Both the position numbers and the translations under genes were made by a program. This document shows positions 14,046 through 45,048 of a stretch of 64,000 nucleotides of DNA, in pieces; the stretch's first letter is position 1; each line of letters opens with the position of its first letter. Under the pieces are notes generated by a model. That model had not been told where the DNA came from, did not search any database, and saw only the letters and a program-made list of their open reading frames with translations. Source of the DNA: Geosiphon pyriformis (lineage: Eukaryota; Glomeromycota; Glomeromycetes; Archaeosporales; Geosiphonaceae); NCBI GenBank assembly GCA_016748015.1, contig JAAOMT010000097.1, positions 124,001 through 188,000 of the forward strand. The letters run 5' to 3'.

Positions 14046-17000
14046 CTATACATCTATATGCACAAAAACTGGATCTCCAATATCTGAAAAAAATGGACAA
14101 AACTTACAAAGCCTGAAACCAACTCCAAAAGCCTCAGCCACCCCCAGCAATCTGATCACACCAGCCGAAAACACCATAGGCAAACCAGAAACTGAAGCAG
14201 GAGCAGAGCCATCACGCGGAATCAAACTGTGCTTTTCCATAAACGCTCGGTGTCTGGCCCGAACTAACCAAACATCATCCCGAAATGCTAGACAAAACTC
14301 ACACACAAAGCTCACAATCCTCTTAGCACCCTCCTTAGAATCTTTAAAGACCGAGACAGACTCACAAAACCATTCATCGAAAACAAAGCCCTTACACAGA
14401 GCAACACCAACTCCAACCTCAGAAACACAAGAAGCCAAGGCCTGTAAGACACATGAAGAAGAGCGAGAAAGACCAGAAAGAGCCTCTTAAGCTGAAGCAT
14501 GTGTGCCTAACAAACGAGCATGGCCAATGGCATTCTGAGGACACGAAAAGACATGATCCGAGGTCTTAATGTCACCACAAAACAGACAGACCACACTGGA
14601 GTATCTCCTATTATATAAACGCTTGTGCACAGCAACAGAAAGCCGATGATGAAGAGCCTTCATAAAGTAAGTATGACAGCCTGCCATGCGCATACTGGTA
14701 AAACTAGATGCCAAGTGAGAATCAGGGTGCCACACTATAGAAGACTTAGACCAATTGATATCAGCATACAAACTAACATCCACAACACGAGAACCCACTC
14801 CAATCTCCCAACGAGCTCAATGAACTAACTGGAAAACATCACGAACAAAGTGTCTAGAATTACCAGAAACTGCCGTACTATCAGCACATAGAAAATGTTC
14901 ACTGACTAAATGAGGTAGGTGCCAAGCAGAGAGAGCAGCACTTTTGGCAAGCGCATCAGCATGTTCATTGCCTGAGACACCTGAATGATCTTTCACCTTA
15001 ACCCAATTCACATCCAAATTCTTTTGATGAATGATGGTGGCAATGTGACAATGCTCGATCCAACAGTGGTTCCTGAAATCCAGACAAACCAGCAAAGACT
15101 TTGACCTACATGCATCCAAAGCAGTCTGGCTATTTGAGAACAAGTCAATCAAACGAGAAAAAAGAACACACTCAAGGGCCAAAGCTATGGCTTGCAGTTC
15201 TGTTAGAGTAGAAGAAACCAAACCAGACACCCCAACACCCAAACCCAAGTTAATGTCCTCAAAAAAAATGGCAGCACCTGCTCTCATGTCAACAGTGCCC
15301 AGACCAGAAAGAGATCCATCTGTATACAGAGAAAAGCGGGCAGCATCAATGGTCGGCAAAGTGTCATGAATCACACCAAAATCATGAGAAAGACAAACAT
15401 CAGACACAGCATGACCATCCACCAAAGAAGAACTTGAGGAGAGAGGCACAATGCTACCAAGAAAGCGAACAGAAAGTTTAAACCAGAAAGGGACTGGACC
15501 ATGAGAGTCCAGCCTCTTCTAACACTTGAAAGTCCCCCAACTGAAAACATCACCATTATGGTCATGAAGCTGTTTCACAAAAGCAATTCCATAACGCCTA
15601 AGCGAAGAGATGCACTTGAAAAAACAGGATTCACCAAGAACCAAAGACATAGGAGTACTATACTGACGACGAAAAGCACAAGCTAGAGGGCCACCCAAAG
15701 ACAAATCACACCCAGAAAAAATGCAAATCACACCCGCCAAAAAATTATCCGAGGGACTGATACCAACACGAACCGGAAACAACAAGGGATGACGAGGATG
15801 CCAGCTGAGAACCTGGAGGTCATAAAACTTATAAGAAAACAAGTAACCCAAGACACCAGTAGAATTTGCAAAAGCAATAACGGAGGCCGATTTACTCTCA
15901 GCCTGGATCTGTTCGAAAGTTTTTAAATTGTACAAAGAGGGGTGATGAAGTGCATTACTGGGAAAATCATGTGGCAATCCAGACTTGGACTTTAAGACCT
16001 TGCATACTAAAGCATCCCATTTACTACAAACACCAACAGAAACAAAACTGAACTGAGTCCTGTAGCTGATGATAGGGAAAAGAACTGCAGACACCAAATA
16101 TGCACACTGTTTGTCTGAAATCACTTTTCTCAAAACAAAATTCACAAAAAACTGTACATCAGCTTGAGGTTTAGCCAAGCTAGGCTTTAAAAGACTCTTA
16201 AAAGACAAAAAAATACCCAAATAGTGATGAGATTCCCCTCTCTTGGCAATGGAAATAAGCGCATCACTGATAGTTAAATAAGGATCCAGCACCTGGCAAT
16301 TGATGGAGATGGTCACCGTTTTGTCATTGTTTACAGAAATATTGTTAAATCTAAAAAACTCATTAACAACATCAAGAATGCATTGTGTAGCAGCCTGGCT
16401 GCTACCAACCCAAATAGTATCATCAACAAAAGTGCCAGCAGCAAGAAATGAAGACAGCCCAGCTTGAGGATCCATCTGGCCAGTTCTTGATATGAAATGA
16501 GAATTCAACCTGTAGCTATACACACTATCCTGTCTCTTGACCTTACACAAAAGTGAATCATAAAAAATACGTCAGAGAAGAGGTGAAAAAACTTCTCCCT
16601 GATCCAGCCCATCATGGACACAATACCCATCAGTCAAGCCAAAGTCAGTCATCACTCTGTTGACGCGACCATTGTGAATACTGCCAAAAAATCTAATAAA
16701 CCTGTCACACATTTTGATCCTGACTAGACTCCTCCTAAGATGTTTCCAACCAACTGAGTCATAAGCCTTGCGCATGTCCTGTAAAACCAGCCAAAGTTCA
16801 CGGTTCTTTTCCAAGGCATCCTCAACCACAGAACCGATAGCAAAAATGGGAGATTACATTGTCGTACCCTTCAAAACTGAAAAATTGTCCCTACGAAGAA
16901 CATTAAAAGTGCTGCAAGCCAGAGAGATTCTATCTGAAAAGATCTTGGAGAGAATCTTGCAGGCCATTTTAATTAAAGCTATAGGATGGGTGTTTGTGAG

Positions 17001-18722
17001 AACTCCCTCCCATTCATATGGTTTAGGAATCATCGAAACCCAAGCTTCTCTCCAAGGCCCAGGGACCGACTCGCCAACCAAACAGAAATTCAAGAACACC
17101 AAAAGCATATCCAAAACAGATTTGTCACAATGTTTCCATAATTTGTTGGAGATACCAGAAAGACCAGCCGCTTTTCCATCAAAAAAATCCTTGACAACAG
17201 CTGACAACTCATCAAAACTAATCAAACACATGACATCAGAGAAAGCACCATCAAACACGTAATCCAGAGGCCGATATTGACAAACCCAATCCTCAGACAA
17301 GTCAGACACCACCTCACGTTTTCTGGTCCATCCCTCCATAATTTTGTCCACCTTAGACTTAACCAAAACAGGCTCTAAAATCAACTCATCTTCTACAACC
17401 AAATGATCCAGGACCACCTTGCGAAAAGGATGCTCCAAAACACTCCTAATGGTGTGACCCTTGTTCAGCTCAAAACTCTCTATCCTCTTACCAATAGCCT
17501 GCTTGATTGAGGATTCTTCGGCGTGCTTGGATTCCACTAATTTGAATGAGTGGTATGATTTTCTTGCTTTGGCCAGCGCAGAACGAATAAGATCAAAATT
17601 AGAATCTGAAAGAAACAGAGACTTAACCACTGATGCACCAGGGGAGTTGAATCTGTGCCACACCTCCAACAAAGAAGCAAAACCATCACTAGAAGCCAAA
17701 TACGAAGTCTTGACCAACTTAGAAACCAGCAGCTCCAGCTTGTGAAACCTAGAAAAAGTCTTGGTAAACACACCATCAAAACCTTTGAACCATTTTTTCT
17801 TAAATGTACCACCTGCTGAAAGAACCATAATCTTGCGAAAAATGTCCCACATAGTATCCATATCTGAAAATCTTACTGCCACACCAAAAGCATCTGAGAA
17901 CATAGAAACATTAGCAGCTGAGGCATCCTTGAACTCCAACCACTTAGCTTTATTGGCACTTTTGACATCAAACTTCCAACGGTCTTTATTCGCTTGCTTG
18001 CAAAGAGAATTCAAATGTGTATCCAAGAGCCTGCCCAAACCCAAATCCACTGAAACAGCTTGATGGTCTGTGTCAAAATGCTCACTGACATTCAAAACTT
18101 CATGACGCACTATTGCATTGACAAGACTTGAGGAGACAAACACGTAATCAATTGTTTTCTTAACACCCCTAAAATTTTCCCAAGTGGGCATTTTTGCAGC
18201 CAGGCTACCAACTAAAGAATTGACCAGACCCAAATCAAAGCATCTTTTGAAACTTGCACTTTTATGAGAGCCGTCTTCATTAAAATCGCCACCGAGAATG
18301 ATGAAAGAAGATTTGTTGACAGCTTTCACAATAAGAGAATTGATTTCACCAGCCTGAGAGAACTGAACCACCGAAGAAGCACCAGCATAAAGCCCCAAAA
18401 TTGACACAGAAAGTTTACCCTTGAAAAGTAATTTAATGGAAAGGAGCCGACCAGGCACCTCAAAAATCTTGCACACATGATGAGCCAAAGAAACGTCCAT
18501 GATAACAGCAACACCCACACCTAAGTGACCAGAGTTCAAACCAGAAGAGAACACTTAGACACCATCAAACTTGTCTGCAATCCATGGACGAACCTTACTT
18601 TTTAATTTCGTTTCAGTAATGATAGAGACCAAATTGTTCATTTCCTTATGCCACCTAATAATGTCCTCTTGCTTAGCGAGATTGTTCATGTCCCTGATAT
18701 TGCACGTAGTAACTTTCCAGAC
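14046..18722 (-). pseudogene. LINE copy C ORF2 (endonuclease, reverse transcriptase, RNase H)
   Basis: All ORF2 pieces (18722-18558, 18554-16854, 16829-16572, 16550-15519, 15449-14817, 14798-14487, 14438-14046) are in the same frame; only stop codons separate them. The endonuclease shows the start-like IRDMNNLAKQ, the catalytic ETKL, GGDFN, TIDYVFVS and TDHQAV. The reverse transcriptase shows MRKAYDSVGW and the active-site FVDD. RNase H shows LYTDGS, TELQAIALALE and NEHADALAK. A C-terminal finger CLFCGDIKTSDHVFSC follows. The active-site residues are present, so the copy was disabled by nonsense changes, most of them explainable as C-to-T or G-to-A. Confidence 0.85.
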
Positions 18723-18730
18723 TAAACTGC

Positions 18731-20524
18731 TCATTGAGTGAGGGGTAGAGACACCAAAAGCGCACCTATACTATCCATTTTGGCCAAAAGGCCCAGAACC
18801 GTCTCCATTAGACACTTCATGCTGTCTTCCAGCTTAGACACTAAAGACACATCAAAAGACACCACTCCCGCGACATTCCCACCACTAGTGGACACACCTG
18901 AACCCTCACTCATCACTACATCTGCCCCTTAATCCTGTAATGAAAAAGTTACCAACAGCTGACATCCAGGGCTAGGCTGGGGAACCATTGGCCCAAGTGC
19001 ATCCAACCTCTTAGCCAGCTTACCAACTTGCTCCGCGAGGCTGGCGAGACTGCGCTCAAGAGCAGTGAACCTATCATTGACTTCCATCACAACCGGTTGG
19101 AACGGCTTCATCTCCGAAGAGGAGCCATTATTCACCACAACGTTCTGACCAGAAAGGGGGAGCGAAAAGCACCCGCGAGCAACCTTTGCCCAAGAGAGAC
19201 CACCAAAAGAGACCAGATGGGCAACTGGAGCCAAGTGTTTGGCATAGATGATTGCTAGCCTGCTTTTATCTGTATCCGAAAAAACTCTACACAGCAAACT
19301 ACCAGAAGATAATTTCCTACCAACTGCACAACCCAATGACGTGTGACCCAATTTCTCACACTTGGTGTATTTAGCAGAAATGAGACGAGACCAGTGGAGA
19401 TTGGTGTTCCTGAGTACTGGTGTGGTTTCCACAGCAGCATCCAATGATTCAGCAGAGTCGAAACAAACAACAGCACATCTGGCCTGAGCATACGTAACAG
19501 AATGATGATCAATGACGCATGTTTTCCCACCCACAGATCTAACAAAGTCCCAGATATCATGAGCAGTGGTCCCTATCGGCAATGTGTAAAGCAGTGCTCT
19601 ATGTTGGTCTCTTACATCCCACACTTCCTTGTCTGAATCAGCCCTAGCCATACATACAGCATTTTTCCCGATTAAGATGGACCACTCAGCTGTGACCAAA
19701 TCAGCCTGATCCGATCATTCGAATTCCACCATTGCCTTCTGCCACAGCCCGATTAACTGCATCTTGATTGCCTTAATAACTCCAAATTCAGATAGCGCAG
19801 TGCACACAGCCTCAACCGATGTTCCAATTGGAATTTCTTTCATGACCACAGCCCAATCTGAGTGACCAGCTGATCTTTTAAGATTGGTGTTTACCATAAT
19901 ATTTGCACCAGTAGCCTTTTCAGTGGCTTTCATTAGATCTGATTCGGAAGTGAATGTTGCTCTGATGATCCCTAAGAATTTTGAGAGGGTAGACACCCCC
20001 CCAAAACCATTAATTCCAGAAAATAAACTCCTGATCTTCTTGAGCTTTTCCTGGGCCGAATTTCCTTCTACTGCTTTCAGATCCAAATTCAAAGCAAATG
20101 ACTTTCTAATCGAAACATTGACCAGGTTCTTAAGAGGAGGGGGAAGCACCAGAGGGGCATCCAGAAGAACATCATCATTATCATTGTTATCCAAGAAGTC
20201 GATCTTTCCCAAAGGTTTTCTCAATGCTTTCCTAGTTGTCAACCGCAAACCTTTCGGCATTTGATTCAAATCTCTACCAACGAGTGCACCATCTTCACCA
20301 TAATCGAAACTTGTCTCCTCAACAAGACATTTCTCTTCCATATCAACACTGTCAGATTCTGTGGTATTACCAGTCTTCAAACCCCATGAATGACCACTTT
20401 GCACCTTAGCAGAACCCTCTTCAGCATCAGCATTGTCCTCAAGAACACCACCTCTTCTCTTTTTTCTTGACAGAACAGTCTTGAAACCACCCTCAGAGCC
20501 AGAACTTTTAACCATCTGTTTCAT
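18731..20524 (-). pseudogene. LINE copy C ORF1 (gag-like RNA-binding protein)
   Basis: One reading frame of about 597 codons from the ATG at 20524 (MKQMVKSS), interrupted in frame by stops at 19715-19717 and 18929-18931. An N-terminal lysine/acid-rich part is followed by a structured segment (FALNLDL, INGFGGVSTLSKF), a second block (TAHDIWDFVRSVGGKTCVID) and a zinc knuckle read as YTKCEKLGHTSLGC. In the last, the first cysteine of CX2CX4HX4C is tyrosine. A C-terminal coiled-coil-like stretch (ALERSLASLAEQVGKLAKRL) follows. ORF1 proteins of this kind bind element RNA to form the transposition particle. The final part (MSEGSG on) may belong to ORF1 or to the region between the ORFs. Confidence 0.75.
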
Positions 20525-20675
20525 AACAGCAATACTAGAGCCAACAACAGCCTCATAATCAAGCAGAAATAGTTTGGATTTATCATACTGAATGGTAAAA
20601 AACTTCTTCCAAAAAACTTTTGACTCTTTTTTTTAGAATTTATGGAGGAACGAGAGAAAGAAGTTTTTTTCCTAT

Positions 20676-22798: not shown

Positions 22799-25700
22799 TT
22801 AATGCATTGATTTTGTGCGTTTTCTTTCCTTCTTTTCTTTGGCATCATTTTGATTAGCACGTTCACTTGAAGCTGCCCTCAATTTTAAGAGCACTAAACA
22901 TGAAAAAATCATAGATTTCTGTTAGCGAAAGAAGCCAAGAGTTAAATTACATTAAATGTACCTGACCAATTTACCTCGATCTAGAGCCAGCTCAATTATA
23001 CACCGATTCTTTATCAGTGCCAAAACGGGCCAAGTCGACTGCTCGCCCTTCAGAATCCAGTAATCTAATGCTCCCGTTGTTGGATTAGAGAAAAGTTCTT
23101 TAAAGTCCTAGATTTCACGAATGATGAATCATTAAAAGGGATGTCGAATTAACCCAAAATTCGAAATATTTTGAGCTACCTTGAATGAGACATGTGGGAC
23201 AATAGTCACGTGCCCAGAGACTTTGTCATCTACCATTCCACGAAGTATTCGTGGAATTAATCTCATATGTTCCAGCTATAAGAAAACATAGAATGAAACC
23301 TGTGAAATTTTAACAACTATACAACAATACAAGAGAGTGATTCGAATTCAAACCTGTAAGATTCGATGACGGAATTCAGATGAAATAAAATGGCCACATT
23401 TATACAAAATGGTTCCTGTTTGTGACATTGGCTCTTTTGGCAAGAATGGCACGATATATGGGTTTGCTTGAGATACAATAAAGTGATTAACATTAAAGAG
23501 CTCCGTAATTTTCTGAAATGGGGATTCACTATAGAACGAACGAAATTTGTAACATGAGGTTAGAAACTGGTAAGGAAGGTTCGAAAAGTACAGATTGCAA
23601 GTTAATCTTACCTTTCTGAAGGGGCAGAGTCGATCCATTTTTTCCATTTTACATCTGAAGAATAGATGTTAATTTATTAGAATCTCATATGCTAGTAAGT
23701 TCCATGATCTTTTGATTATAATTGAATTTGAATGACTAAAACACTTTAATACCAGAAGGGGCCCATGGAACAATTGCTCCAGTCTTATCCTTTGCCAGAA
23801 GCTCAACACTATTATAAAGACCCATCATAGCAGCTGAGGCAAGAGCAGCACTTCGTATTAACTAACTCAATTAAAAAGTTAGTTCGTGAAATTGTTAAAT
23901 GGAAAATTTATGATTTTTTTCATTGTTTCAAGACCTACAACATTAGGCGCTGTCAAATAATTTAATAGTTGAGGAACTTCGAATTTCCTGGTCGAAGAGA
24001 CCGTGATATTGAGGATTCGCTTTGTTTTTACAAAAGCTTCCTAAGGAATTTCAAGAAATTCAGTATTCAATTTTGGGGTGAAAAAAGACTCAAAACACAA
24101 AAGTGATGGTCACATACTTCAAAGGTTAGATCCTCCACGTTACTCCGAACACATTCTTCCAAAACTCTAACATCCATAAGATAGCCTGTGACAACCAGTA
24201 TAAATTAAATTTCCGATTCAATAAATCAGATAATTGAAATTTTTCGCTAATATGTATTTACCATGTTTTAAAAAACGTATTATCTTTCGTTGAATGTTGC
24301 CTTTTTGACCAACTTTGCTGAAGGCCCCCAGGTCAATACCACCAGGCTCAAAAATTTTCTGTAGATAAAATAGAAAACCAAAATCAATCATGTCACTGAA
24401 TCAAAATGAATTCGAAAATAATTTTGATACCGACCGGTAATTCTTCATCAGTGTGAATACAGATTAGAGCGGCGATTAATGCCCCGATCGCAGTTCCACT
24501 AATAATTCTTGGTAACAGTCCATTCTCTTTCAGTGCCTTACAAACTCCCAAATGGTAAAGACCTGGAAAATTCAATAATTATTTAGAGTAAATTAAGAGG
24601 AAAATGGTTAAATTGAAAAATGAACTTCACCTACCAAATGTGGCACCACCATAAAGTACCAAAGCAGTACAGCCAAAACTTTGTCTTGTATCATTAAAGA
24701 ATTCAATTTTGGATTGAAGAGTTAAATCGTTGAAATCTGTGCACGCAATACATTCAAGCTGATCCACGACTTCCTGCGTGTAATCTTCAATCAGCTTTTT
24801 AGTTCTGCAAGAAAATCTTTTGAAATCAATTATGATATTCGAATCTAAATAGAAAAAAAAAGATTTCATTACTCAAAAATAATCACCCCAAATATGACCG
24901 CTCGAATAATTTCGGATCATTTAATCCGCCCAGATTCCGTAATAAACCTAGAGAGAAATGAATTTCTTGAAATTAGAAATTCATAAAAAGAATTACTCGT
25001 TTTTCATGAATTTACTAACCTGACCTTAGCAAGTAGATCATGGCACAAACATCGTTTTTCTCTCTTGCTTGTTTGAGATGTTCCAGCCTATGCTTGATGA
25101 AAGCACTATCGTAAAAAGGTGATTCAGGTTTTTCTTTCCATGCATCGTTTCCTTTGATTTCAAAAATAAGGAACATGATTAAACCTTAAAATCAAGATTT
25201 AAAAATAGGAAAAAAAACATTTGCAAATCATCGGTTTACCTAAGAGTCTACGACCAAAAATTAAAAATAAGGCTTATAAAATTAGCATATTTCTAATTTG
25301 ACTCGAATCCCTTTCCTCGAAATATTTGAGATTTACAAAATGATCAACAATAAAAATAAAAACTCACAAATCCAATTCATGAGCTTTTCTCGCCCATTCT
25401 TCATAGGTATTTGCATGCCATAAATCAAGCCGTACTTGTTGAGCCAGGGTTCTCGAATGTCTAAGTTTATTAGATATCGTCTAAAAAAACAAAATATTAT
25501 TCCACAAAATCATGATAAATTTCCTGAAATCAGATAATTTGAATACACTTACCCGCCATACAGACACCACAAATCGGACCACGAAATAGAAAAAAGCAGT
25601 AGCGAAATATCCCAAAGCTCGGGTGACAAACGACTTTCAACAAAGGATTAGATAAAAAAGGTATAAAATTAATTTTAGAATTTTCTCAAGTTCCCTTGTC

Positions 25701-25930
25701 ATCTTAAAGACTTGATAAATAGAAATATTTTTATGAAAATACCCTGAAAAAGATTAGATACAAGAAAAATATAAGTTTCACTTTCCCATTGTGATAATTT
25801 CAAATCAGAGAAAGAAAAGTTTTTATGAAAAAAAAAGGTTACAAACCACAAACATAATAGTATAGAAGGGGGGATTTCTTGTATTTCTTGACAGGCTTTT
25901 TACACTCAAAACTTTTTCAAAATAATTAAC
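22799..25930 (-). CDS. Patatin-like lipase homologue (Tgl3/4/5, SDP1 type), active-site serine missing
   Basis: This gene on the minus strand has about ten exons. Family features in order: a hydrophobic N-terminal segment (ALGYFATAFFYFVVRF, near 25600), TYEEWARKAHELD, DAWKEKPESPFYD, YLLRSGLLRNLGGLND, the oxyanion-hole loop GGATFG, LYHLGVCKALKENGLLPRI, KRILNITVSST, LLNYLTAPNV, WID and ELFNVNHFIVSQANPYIVPFL. The C-terminus is basic and ends at the stop at 22799-22801. These are triacylglycerol lipases of lipid droplets. The nucleophile elbow, normally GXSXG, reads GTAIG here, and WIDG reads WIDS. A catalytic role is therefore doubtful; it may be a pseudoenzyme or a decaying paralogue. The first exon is not settled. 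Confidence 0.82.
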
Positions 25931-27760: not shown

Positions 27761-29532
27761 AAAAAAAAAAAGCTAAAGTTCTTGAACTCCAAATAAAGCG
27801 AGTAAAAAGTTCATTTAGGGTAAATTCTATTATTATAGGCATTTTCTTGTATTGAGTTATGCTCCACAATGCATTAAATGTTGATACCACCAAAAATTCC
27901 CCGTCTATAAACTCGAATGAGTGGCTCAAAATGTCGTCAAATATTTTTCTTAAGAATTCATTATCTACCTTTTTTTACTCTTCCCAAATTCCTGCAGAAA
28001 TCCAAAGAAAAACAGTGTATCGATAATTTACTTACAAATATTTATAAAAGTTTTTTAAAAAACCCTTTTTTTTTTTTACCCAACAATATTATAATGTTGG
28101 AGAGTCGTAAAAAGTAGAAATTTTGATATCTTGATTTTTTTTTTTAAAGGAGATTACACATGCAATTTGATATCTTGATTTTTTTAAAGGTGGTTACCCA
28201 TGCAAATCGAGAAAAAAAAAAGAAAAAGAGAATCAACATAAATTTTCTTCCAAAAATATATTCTAAAGTGTATTATGATTTTAATAAAAAAATAAATTGA
28301 ATTTATCTTTCTTTGAATTCAAAATTTTAATGCATATGATGGCTAAACCTTATCATCAGATTGAACTTATAATTGTAATTTTTGATTAAAATTTATATAA
28401 AGAAATACAACCGCCCGTTAAAAAGATCCGTATTCTAAACGCAATACAGAAACTTTCAAGTTCCGTACTTGGGGTATACAGTATATACTTAAATCCCTAA
28501 TCGGTAGGATTGGAAAAAAATCCTATGATTAGACCACTTATTTATTGTCTTAAATGTTTTTTTACCCAAGAAAATCTTATAAATCCTTGCATAATTTATC
28601 GAAAATACTTTTAATCCCTTTAGAATTATGATTAATTAGGGAAATACGACTGAATCATAATCTATAATGTATCTCAATCAATCCCTTACATTTTCCATCT
28701 GCTAAGGGATCATAATGCATAATACGCATGATAATGAATCCTTGCTCAGACAGTTGATTGAAAATTTGATAAAGAAAGGCCCTATTTCGAAACTTATTTC
28801 CTCTTCACAAACTCCCCTTTTTAAATTCTAAAGTTAATTGGTTCTTCTTGTTTGTTCAATTTTTAATAAAACCCTTGCCCCAGTAAAAATATTCTATTTT
28901 TGTAAAAAAAGGGAAAGCAAAAAACGTGAGAAATAAAAAAATATATAACCTGTTTATTTCATTATTAGGTTTATTATTATTAAATTTAGGTACCATTATG
29001 CCCACGTTAGACTGTCACGTTCCGGATCCTACAGATTGCTTGAATCTCTTTTCGTCTAGGGTTTTAATTCGCATGCTTCGGAAGAACTTCCTGTCAATTG
29101 TGTTTTTTTTTAAACCTTGATTCATTTACCGTGGTACTAATGACGATTATGATAAGTCTTGGATGACACTACCAAGAAAGGAAAATAACCTACCGAGAAA
29201 ACAAAAGAGCTGCAGCAGTTTCAAAAACAAAAAGAAATGCATGCATCATGCAGTAGGATGCAGATTAACAACACTTGCACCAATTTTGAAGTAGAATGAA
29301 TAAAGTTTTGATTAGTTAAGAAGAAGAAGACTGAACTTAAGAAGTCCAGTTGCTTCCCAGCATTGATGAAATCATTATTTAAGCAGGATCATTGAAAACT
29401 TTCCCATCAACCTTTCCTTCCCATCTTTTTTAATCTCTTTATAATTTCGTCTTGACTCTTTTAAGAGAAAAGAACAATATTAAATACACGCACGCGTTAA
29501 TTTCCTTTATTACTGATATCAATTTAAAAATA
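27761..29532. other. Spacer upstream of MATA-HMG gene
   Basis: No convincing gene. An imperfect tandem duplication of about 43 bp lies at 28121-28206. A less AT-rich stretch at 28410-28760 could be a non-autonomous element, but I saw no clear terminal repeats. A pyrimidine-rich stretch at 29400-29450 precedes the MATA-HMG start and may be its promoter or 5' UTR. Confidence 0.45.
28121..28206. repeat. Imperfect tandem duplication, two units
   Basis: Unit 1 is 28121-28164 and unit 2 is 28165-28206. Both contain TTTGATATCTTGATTTTTT, a T run of different length, AAAGG and a conserved TTAC...CATGCAA end. Confidence 0.7.
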
Positions 29533-30861
29533 ATGCCAAAAATCAAATCTGAAAAAAGGGAATTCAATAATTTCGTTTCTATGCCATTGGTATTTCTTCA
29601 ACCGGCTCCAATCCCGGCGGTAGATCCAACTTCATCCATGATCTCGACTAGAAATAATGACTTAAACTCATCAACCGCAGCGCTAACTGATTCAAATGGT
29701 GTTTTCATTCATCAACAAGACCGTCTAAGCTCAGAAGATATAATGCTACTTCAGGATCCACCTTACAAACTTACCCTCCCGATTAACGAATTATTGGCAC
29801 CCGCTAAAAGAACGCGTAAAATCAACAAGAAATTGGCACAAACTGGAGGCCTGACCGAGGAAGATGAGAAACCACCTCGACCACAAAATGGTTGGGTAAT
29901 CTTTCGTAAAGATTATGAGGCAAAATTACGTGAATTGAATCCGGAAGAGACTTACAAAATTCAAGATATCTCTAAAACAGCTGGTCCTGTTTGGAGAGAT
30001 CAATCCGAAAAAGTTAAAAAATATTTCGAGGTGTTACAACGCGTCGCTCTAGAAAAACACAAGGCAATGTATCCAAATTACAAATATATGCCGAAAAAGA
30101 AGGATCAATCAGCCAACACAACATCCGTGACAGCACCAAAAAATGAAAAGAATTGGGTTTTTCGTGAAATGGCAAATCGTCAACCACCATATCTTTATGA
30201 ACACACAAGTGGTGAAGAATGTCGAATGCAAATCAATCCGGATACACCAACACCTTCATCTTTGGTAAATTCACCACGCGAATATTCTTCATCTGGAACT
30301 TTTTCTCCGACACCACCAAACTCCCCGGCTGAAGATCCATTTGATATTTATAACGCGTCAAATAATTGTCATGCTCCCTCGTTTTACTTTGAAGACTACC
30401 ATTATGCTACCTCTGCCAACACTAGTATCCCGACATCAAATCAATCAACCGCTTCTGTTAGCTGTACACCATCACCTAACTATTATTCAGCAATACCTTC
30501 GACAAACATATTTCCTCCCATTTCGAATTTGTTGCCTTCTTATTTAAATAATCAAAATACCACGGTTCCTTCTTCATTTGATTCTTCATTCAATTCCGGG
30601 ATCAATGAAAAATTTACAGATTGTTCGCTCAGCATACTTGCCAATGGCCTTGGAATTAACTTGAATCCGATGAGTTCGACATCTTTATTTCAAGGTTCTA
30701 CCATGACAACACTTTCTGGCGACTCGAACACACAATGTTTTGACGCTACCTCGCCATCGAATTCCTTCAAATTGGAGGAAATTCCATTGGATCGGTACGA
30801 CTTTTCAAGTGTCTCTCAACAATTCAATGAGGTTAATTTCACTGCCACTACCACCACTACC

Positions 30862-30892
<31 letters not shown>

Positions 30893-31611
30893 TAAATTCC
30901 AACAATGGAAACACTACGATCTTTGATAATGGTAACAATCATCAAGAAAATTTCACACCCAATATGGTTAATGTCGATGGAATGGCCCTTAATTACCAAT
31001 CTGGGAAAAACTATAACGAAACTTTGGAAACATTTGGAGGTGATATCTCTATGCTTTTCAACCAACAATCGAGTGGGAATTTCAATTTCTCCAACTCCGA
31101 ACCTTATAAGGGGAATAAATTTACAGATAATTTCAGTAGCATAAAGCTTTCAGATGATTTTGTATTTCAAGAAGATTTCACGGATGGCGATTGCATTGGG
31201 GTTGATGGGATGAATTCAAACGACCTCTTTTGTCATCTTCAACAACAGCCCCTTGATTTGAATCTTCATCAGGAATCACCAAAGATTGAATCTGGCAGAA
31301 TAGCTAGTACATTTAGTCCTGAAAATGTGACAATTCCGAGCCCAACTAAACTTGAATTTCCATTCGCAACTATTGTGACCGTGACCACCACAACTACAAA
31401 TGCTTCATTTACTGTTAAAGATAAACATAAGGAAATTTCATCATGTATACCTGATAGTTGCTCGACAACTCCTTTTGTTCCTCCCCATCTTCCCGAATTT
31501 TTAATGAACAATTATGATACAACCTTTGCTGCTGGAAATTTCTCTGGCGTTTCGTTTGAAGAGTTATTTGGTGAAAATTGTGACTTGCCGTCACCACCTT
31601 TTTCTTTCTAA
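29533..31611 (+). CDS. MATA-HMG box transcription factor
   Basis: An intronless gene of 692 codons. The ATG at 29533 (MPKIKSEKRE) is the first ATG in a frame that is open further upstream without one. The HMG box covers about residues 114-185 (RPQNGWVIFRKDYE, IQDISKTAGPVWRDQSEKVKKYFEV, HKAMYPNYKYMPKKK), preceded by basic KRTRKINKK. This is the MATA_HMG type, related to fungal mating-type HMG proteins that bind bent AT-rich DNA in the nucleus. The C-terminal 500 residues are low-complexity, rich in Ser, Thr, Asn and Pro, with a poly-Asn run near 443-453 and a final aromatic/acidic part ending LPSPPFSF, which could activate transcription. Glomeromycotina carry large MATA-HMG families, so mating function cannot be assumed. 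Confidence 0.9.
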
Positions 31612-42935: not shown

Positions 42936-43241
42936 GACCGTTCAAACGGTTATGTTGTAGGCTGAATTTTCGCAATAATACAAGGAAATGGTCTGTAATA
43001 AAGCATGAGTTTCTGTTTGTGACCACATGTGCAGTGAGCTCCGAAGATAGTGCAGCGCTGCAGAAGAATCTTAAGCTTATAGATTAAGGGCAAAAATTTC
43101 AACAAGTCATTTTGATAAATTTTTATTTCCCTAATTTGGCAATTTTGATTATCGGGATTTAAATTTGCGGCATCAAAGATTTTCAATCAATTTGACTTTC
43201 TCTATTTCCAAAGGTTTAGAGCCTCACCCATTAACACTGTG
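42936..43241. promoter_or_regulatory. Bidirectional promoter region RUD3 / ERG6
   Basis: 306 bp between two start codons that point apart; it must hold both promoters. No individual sites can be named with confidence. Confidence 0.55.
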
Positions 43242-45048
43242 ATGTCAATAGAAAGAAGACCTATTCAGGAGACTTATGTTAAAGATGCGGCCTTTTCCGA
43301 CATTTTACATGGAAAAGAAATCATCGAATCTGACGGTAGTTTTTTCACAAAAGTCACTTCAAAGGACAAAGCTGCACACGAAGCAGTGGTAAAAAATTAT
43401 TTGAGTTTTTGGGAGGGGAAGGAACCGGAGAATGAGACAAGTGAGGACATCAAAGCGCGTCAAGAAAACTATACGTCTCTAACCAATTCTTATTATAACA
43501 TTGCTACTGACTTTTACGAGGTATTAGTATAAAAATTTGGTTTATTGTGTTTTTTAAATGTCCCAATCATACAAGCTGTTTATTAGAATAAGCTTTTTAA
43601 CAATTTGGGGACTTTTAATAATTCCAATCTAATATGAGAGAAGTGTCACTTGATTATTTGTAAATATTCAGAATTTCAAACCTTAATTGGTCGTTCGGAA
43701 CCGTTCAATTTTTCTAATTTTTCAATATTTTATGTAATAATCAAATGGTACTTCTCGTACGATCAAAATTGAAAAATTCTGATGTATTTGAAATTCAGAA
43801 CATAAATTTCTGTTTATTCGGATGATTTGGAAAGAAACAATTAAATAAAATCCTTCCCCGTTCAATTTTTCAATTGAATAGCTTTTTGGTTAAAATTGGT
43901 TATGTGCTTTTCAATACCTTAATAGTATGGTTGGGGAACCTCATTTCACTTTTGCCGTTTCTACCCCAACGAAAGCTTTGAACACGCCATTTCACGACAC
44001 GAGCATTACTTGGCTATGCAATTAAATGTGAAACCTGGTATGAACATACTAGATATCGGCTGTGGCGTTGGTATGTATGAGAAAAGAAAAGTAAACTAAT
44101 ATCCATATCATTTAGCCTACTGACCCTTTTTTACCAACCTAAAATCGACCAAAAAATAGGTGGGCCAGCACGGGAGATTTGTCATTTCACGGGTGCCCAT
44201 ATCACTGGATTAAATAATAACGATTATCAAATCCAACGCGCCAAGGAGTATTCAAAAAAGATTGGGCTGGAGTCAAAAACTGATTTTGTAAAGGGTAATT
44301 TCATGGATATCCCTTTCGAGAATAACAGTTTCGATGCAGTATACGCAATCGAAGCCACTTGTCACGCACCAAAACTCGAGGATGTATACGGAGAAGCATA
44401 TCGTGTGCTTAAACCTGGTGGCATCTTTGCTATTTATGAATGGTGTACTACTGAAAATTATGACTCAAAAAATCCAGAGCATCAAAGAATTTCACGTGGA
44501 ATCGAGGTGAAACTACTAAGAAAATCTTTTTATTGTCATTGAATAATTTTTCTGAAGATTGATATTTTCAAAGGTGGGTGATGGGATACCAAAACTGTTT
44601 AGTACTTCAGTTGCTGAAAAAGAATTTCGAAGCGTTGGATTTGAAGTTCAACTTGCCATCGACTTAGCAGTCAACGATGATAAATCTACCTGGTATCATC
44701 CCTTGGAAGGTGATTATCGTAAAGTTCAATCACTTTGGGATTGCTTTACAGTCTTCCGAATGACACGTATGGGAAAATATTTCACTCGTGCAGTGGTAAG
44801 TCTAAAACATAAAAGTGAAATTAGCCAAAAAATTGTTTCAAAATAATTGATTTATTACCTTTTTTTATAAAATGAAGGTCGGTTGTTTGGAAAAGCTCGG
44901 CATTGCCCCAGCTGGTTCTATAAAAACTCAAAAGGTTCTAGAAACCGCCCAAGATAGTATTATTCAAGGTGGACGGTTAGGGCTCTTCACACCTATGTTT
45001 TTGCTCGTTGGCAAAAAGCCTACTTCAAAAGAGCAAACAAAATTTTAA
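43242..45048 (+). CDS. ERG6: Sterol C-24 methyltransferase (Erg6)
   Basis: Transfers a methyl group from S-adenosylmethionine to C-24 of the sterol side chain, the step that sets fungal and plant sterols apart from cholesterol. Five exons (43242-43520, 43926-44070, 44160-44506, 44574-44795, 44878-45048) join in frame to 387 residues, the usual length. Visible motifs: [22 protein letters not shown], the SAM-binding motif [41 protein letters not shown] and the family ending [13 protein letters not shown]. The ATG at 43242 follows an in-frame GTG, so ATG is taken as the start. It shares its promoter region with RUD3. Confidence 0.95.

Follow-up and report, generated by a model that had tools for sequence, protein, structure and literature searches.

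The locus and its gene model

The window, that is, the whole stretch of 64,000 nucleotides of DNA that was analysed, carries on its minus strand a gene that belongs by homology to the DUF3336-patatin (Tgl/SDP1) family, hereafter called the window copy. Its modelled coding region and a candidate for its first exon are as follows.

22799..25633, minus strand: Tgl/SDP1-type DUF3336-patatin gene (window copy), 16 coding exons, 536 amino acids plus stop
25842..25855, minus strand: candidate first coding exon of the window copy (ATG TTT GTG ...), donor at 25846 or 25842

The 16 spliced exons, which include a micro-exon of 8 nt (25247-25240, minus strand), form one open frame ending in TAA, and every intron is of the GT-AG type. 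The reading frame is thus preserved, as the initial annotation had claimed, and a search for frame-breaking lesions, which it had named as evidence against its interpretation, revealed no stop, frameshift or non-GT-AG site in any of the 16 exons. Two Pfam domains match far above the cut-off, PF11815 (DUF3336; 1.7e-41) at residues 40-172 and PF01734 (patatin; 1.5e-20) at residues 180-341, which bears out the earlier assignment to the Tgl-type patatin lipases. The order of DUF3336 followed by patatin is the arrangement found in yeast Tgl3/4/5 and plant SDP1. Compared by domain content, these proteins share both Pfam domains with the window copy, in that order, as well as an N-terminal hydrophobic segment. 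The window copy has lost the GXSXG nucleophile and the DG motif, which every intact family member examined possesses.

The hydrophobic segment of the window copy, ALGYFATAFFYFVVRFVVSVW, is encoded by the first conserved exon. Because an in-frame stop precedes this exon, a short upstream exon with an ATG must exist, and by hand inspection no short upstream open reading frame other than the candidate listed above combines an ATG with a GT donor usable in phase 0 or 1. The gene had initially been drawn up to 25930; coding evidence begins at 25633, and the extension to 25930 is unsupported as coding. Among solved structures, only remote patatins match the window copy (PlpD, 1.7e-5), and none was found for DUF3336.

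Other features lie in the neighbourhood. A run of open frames resembling a non-LTR retrotransposon (14817-20632, minus strand), with a weak endonuclease-reverse transcriptase match and an RNase H match of 7e-11, begins some 2 kb away from the lipase gene on its downstream side. An open frame of 725 amino acids (29434-31611, plus strand) contains an HMG box (PF00505, 1.2e-12) and may encode a transcription factor. A methyltransferase gene (43149-44542, plus strand; Methyltransf_11, 3.4e-19) resembles, by eye, a sterol C-24 methyltransferase.

Active-site motifs of the window copy

The patatin mechanism uses a serine nucleophile together with an aspartate (PMC12871566). The segments of the window copy that correspond to the active site are listed here in the order of transcription.

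24635..24804, minus strand: oxyanion-motif exon, GGATFG retained, its last residues crossing into the next exon
24435..24562, minus strand: nucleophile-elbow exon, reading GLYHLGVCKALKENGLLPRIISGTAIGALIAALICIHTDEELP
24483..24497, minus strand: GTAIG in place of GXSXG, Ala213 being GCG at 24491-24489
23753..23861, minus strand: exon reading LIRSAALASAAMMGLYNSVELLAKDKTGAIVPWAPS, invariant Pro of the SAxAASCxxP segment replaced by Met333
23612..23654, minus strand: WIDS exon, with a short in-frame insertion KWKKW
23354..23528, minus strand: exon reading SESPFQKITELFNVNHFIVSQANPYIVPFL..., ENDLP segment reading ESESP, downstream FNVNHFIVSQ block preserved

The replacement of the elbow serine by alanine, the central observation of the initial annotation, is confirmed at the codon level, and the context of the elbow reads I-S-G-T-A-I-G-A. 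The elbow had been described as lying in one continuous exon flanked by family sequence; this holds for the elbow itself, which is contained in the exon at 24562-24435, but not for the oxyanion motif, which is in the preceding exon. The glycine-rich loop GGATFG of that motif is present and split over two exons. Also as described earlier, WIDG reads WIDS (23637-23626, minus strand) with the aspartate kept: the Asp codon is GAC at 23631-23629, and the following Gly has become Ser (TCT, 23628-23626).

Three active-site changes go beyond the earlier description. The family-invariant serine of LSGG, just before GGATFG, is Tyr183 (TAT, 24653-24651), giving LYGG; ENDLP has become ESESP; and the invariant Pro has become Met. 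The serine loss is therefore not isolated, since the LSGG, ENDLP, WIDG and Pro positions are altered as well, in other exons, and the W.DG...DLP motif of catalytic lipases is replaced by WIDS...ESESP. Near the elbow the window copy has Ser210 and Thr212, but as both residues are also present in Ser-bearing relatives, no new nucleophile is evident. With the serine gone and the Asp-Gly turn and neighbouring positions altered, hydrolysis through the patatin dyad is very unlikely in the predicted protein.

Conservation in bacterial relatives

The bacterial DUF3336-patatins used for comparison came from one order of Gammaproteobacteria and comprised the best matches, 20 of those next in rank and 20 of the most divergent. 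They gave 72 rows, 71 of which are intact, the remaining one (L028) breaking off in the nucleophile region. All 71 intact bacterial proteins have Ser at the nucleophile position, as do both paralogues from the fungal genome itself (C270 and C366, described below), which excludes chance as an explanation. No natural loss of the nucleophile serine was found among these 71 sampled members of the one order. Neither the Asp, nor the Gly after it (the DG motif), nor the Ser of LSGG varies in any of the 72 bacterial rows or in the two paralogues. At the four invariant positions (nucleophile Ser, Asp, Gly and LSGG Ser), the window copy thus differs at three. Some of the bacterial proteins (L072, L073 and L075, and L074, L076, L079, L084 and L085) have an altered oxyanion loop (LSGSGSLF or MSSGGMLM-like) with GXSXG and DG intact, the reverse of the pattern in the window copy.

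Relatives in the same genome

The genome search covered an assembly of 124.7 Mb in 406 contigs and found three DUF3336 genes, namely, the window copy and the following two.

C270:681158-684052: 606 amino acids, GASSG and WIDGSVENDLP, intact as modelled from sequence
C366:1649362-1646767: 731 amino acids, GTSAG and KDGSLRTDIP, intact as modelled from sequence

Sequence identity of the window copy is 44% with C270 and 32% with C366. The window copy has nine intron positions in common with C270, in the same phase, and none with C366. In the tree it groups with C270 (SH-aLRT 90; tree path 2.4 changes per column), although this placement is not certain because the branches are long. Together these results indicate that the window copy is an old, intron-bearing duplicate rather than a retrocopy. 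C270, the 44% identical sister, has an intact elbow and an intact WIDGSVENDLP segment and is presumably catalytic.

No tandem catalytic copy of the window gene was found in the window or in the genome, and no second elbow exon was found across the whole window. At the DNA level the assembly contains one copy of the window gene, and a search of the whole assembly detected the elbow-encoding DNA at this locus only. No relatives of the window copy were found in viral contigs. A further patatin gene, resembling neuropathy target esterase, lies at G000:C360:10769-11339 and has an intact elbow, GTSIG.

Acyl transfer as a possible retained activity

The main rival to a non-catalytic role is that lipase activity has been lost and acylation of lysophospholipids kept, perhaps without need of the GXSXG serine. 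It holds this rank because yeast Tgl3, Tgl4 and Tgl5 also acylate lysophospholipids, an HX4D motif having been noted in Tgl5 (PMC7613133, PMC12014800). Two HX4D matches in the window protein, HGYLMD and HVSFKD, align with HGVLFD and HISYAD of C270. The His of both matches is, however, conserved neither in the bacteria nor in C366, chance alone should yield HX4D matches at this protein length, and the motif has little predictive value because Tgl4 acylates without it. We therefore rejected HX4D as proof of an acyltransferase, and consider retained acyl transfer unlikely overall.

Decay or maintenance

Somewhat less likely still is that the window copy is a relict that has recently lost catalysis and is decaying but not yet broken. 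Its branch is 1.7 times as long as that of its catalytic sister C270 (1.53 vs 0.91), which fits relaxed constraint, several normally invariant residues are replaced, and the first conserved exon is without a clear start codon. Against this stand 16 exons free of stops, frameshifts and broken splice sites, and indels relative to C270 that are all in frame.

The distribution of the replacements also bears on this question. In 31 bacteria and the two paralogues, C270 and C366, 52 columns are fixed; the window copy has a different residue at seven of them (LSGG Ser to Tyr, nucleophile Ser to Ala, Pro to Met, DG Gly to Ser, NDLP Asp to Glu, and two others). Departures number 5/17 in the catalytic segments and 2/35 elsewhere (Fisher p = 0.03); the Pro loop joined the catalytic set after it had been seen to differ, and without it the counts are 4/14 and 3/38 (p = 0.07). 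The clustering of changes in catalytic segments is accordingly suggestive, not strong. Among 80 bacteria-invariant columns the window copy keeps 60, a level comparable with the 64 of C270 and the 57 of C366.

A simple neutral model was maximised over the divergence since the loss, with the requirement of no lesion, at least five motif replacements and at most two replacements elsewhere. The maximum joint probability was 2e-4 when stops alone were considered and 3e-6 when indels and splice sites were considered as well, so that these motif changes, together with an open frame and the retention of nearly all other invariant columns, have a probability of at most 2e-4 under decay. The model assumes that the motif changes postdate the loss of catalysis. 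It also relies on the motif set used above, which was partly defined after the fact, and is for these reasons an argument rather than a proof. It points to purifying selection on the window copy after the serine was lost. The predicted protein has lost catalytic residues and kept its frame and fold residues, the combination that marks a maintained pseudoenzyme. The preference of the initial annotation for a maintained pseudoenzyme over a fresh pseudogene is supported by the lack of lesions and the poor fit of the neutral model, and the likeliest reading of the window copy is that of a paralogue which is maintained but hydrolytically dead.

Less probable readings: residual hydrolysis or sequence error

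On an improbable reading, the window copy would still hydrolyse weakly with its altered active site, as has been claimed for the plant pPLAIII patatins. These proteins have GXGXG in place of GXSXG and are reported to be acyl hydrolases (PMC4253999, PMC7284883). They are like the window copy in the natural replacement of the box serine, but differ from it in having Gly rather than Ala, in belonging to a different subfamily and in their reported activity. The retained oxyanion loop and Asp of the window copy would suit such a hydrolase; the joint change of five catalytic-segment positions and the lack of any evident new nucleophile argue against it. Finally, a base-calling or assembly error confined to one codon is highly improbable, as is rescue through an alternative exon: although a single base separates Ser TCG from Ala GCG, the WIDG, LSGG, ENDLP and Pro positions are altered in other exons, so that a single-base error is rejected as the whole explanation, and there is neither a second elbow exon in the window nor a second copy in the assembly.

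A possible role as partner of an active lipase

Since the rest of the window protein is intact, a helper or regulator role is probable, and by analogy with Yarrowia Tgl3 our best guess is a regulator or scaffold of an active Tgl lipase. We give an even chance to the full proposal that an old, intact Tgl paralogue has lost lipase catalysis and now acts as a non-catalytic partner of an active lipase. An old duplicate of a lipid-droplet triacylglycerol lipase of the DUF3336-patatin (Tgl3/4/5-SDP1) type would have lost serine-hydrolase catalysis. The sequence itself shows the replaced catalytic residues beside a preserved DUF3336 domain, N-terminal hydrophobic helix and set of oxyanion glycines, and the invariant positions of the fold are mostly unchanged. 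The product would still fold and bind the droplet or ER surface or triacylglycerol, and might serve as an activator, a stabiliser or a substrate-sequestering scaffold of the active lipase. The two Ser-bearing paralogues in the same genome are possible partners, the likeliest being the sister C270 (GASSG/WIDG) or else C366 (GTSAG/KDG). In a fungus living on host-derived lipid, such a partner would tune the release of stored fatty acids.

A similar case has been described in Yarrowia lipolytica, whose Tgl3, according to later papers, is not a typical serine hydrolase and is a positive regulator of Tgl4 (PMC7873097, PMC7762315, PMC12014800); one paper states the roles of Tgl3 and Tgl4 in reverse (PMC10995274). 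Compared by description, this Tgl-family protein is like the window copy in not being a typical serine hydrolase. Natural loss of the patatin serine has precedents, in pPLAIII with its GXGXG and, by description, in Yarrowia Tgl3. Few patatin proteins without the serine are listed so far, and the window copy is a further case, defined by its sequence.

Lipid-metabolism context

Arbuscular mycorrhizal fungi take up plant fatty acids and store them as triacylglycerol, and little is known about the control of storage and release. If a dead lipase is maintained alongside two paralogues that bear the Ser, this would indicate control of lipolysis at the protein level, and the window copy offers a concrete gene for tests of such control. 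We regard as doubtful the broader idea that in an arbuscular mycorrhizal fungus an ancient duplicate of a triacylglycerol lipase became a non-catalytic protein dedicated to regulating the lipid-droplet lipases, conserved across Glomeromycotina and tied to dependence on host fatty acids. Passages found in a survey of lipid genes in Mucoromycota name TGL1-4 but no dead TGL paralogue.

A search of the assembly gave no match to the helical domain of the FAS-I beta subunit, a result that does not prove absence, and it did find acetyl-CoA carboxylase; the corresponding search for the FAS-I alpha domain was without a positive control. The missing beta-domain match is consistent with the report that Glomeromycotina are without FAS-I (PMC10629195), and together with the assembly size of 124.7 Mb it makes an arbuscular mycorrhizal origin of the DNA no more than plausible. 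On two contigs, at G000:C255:1244-2698 and G000:C365:222664-224118, there are carboxyl-transferase exons whose scores and spacing are identical, which suggests a duplicated stretch of assembly or a recent copy.
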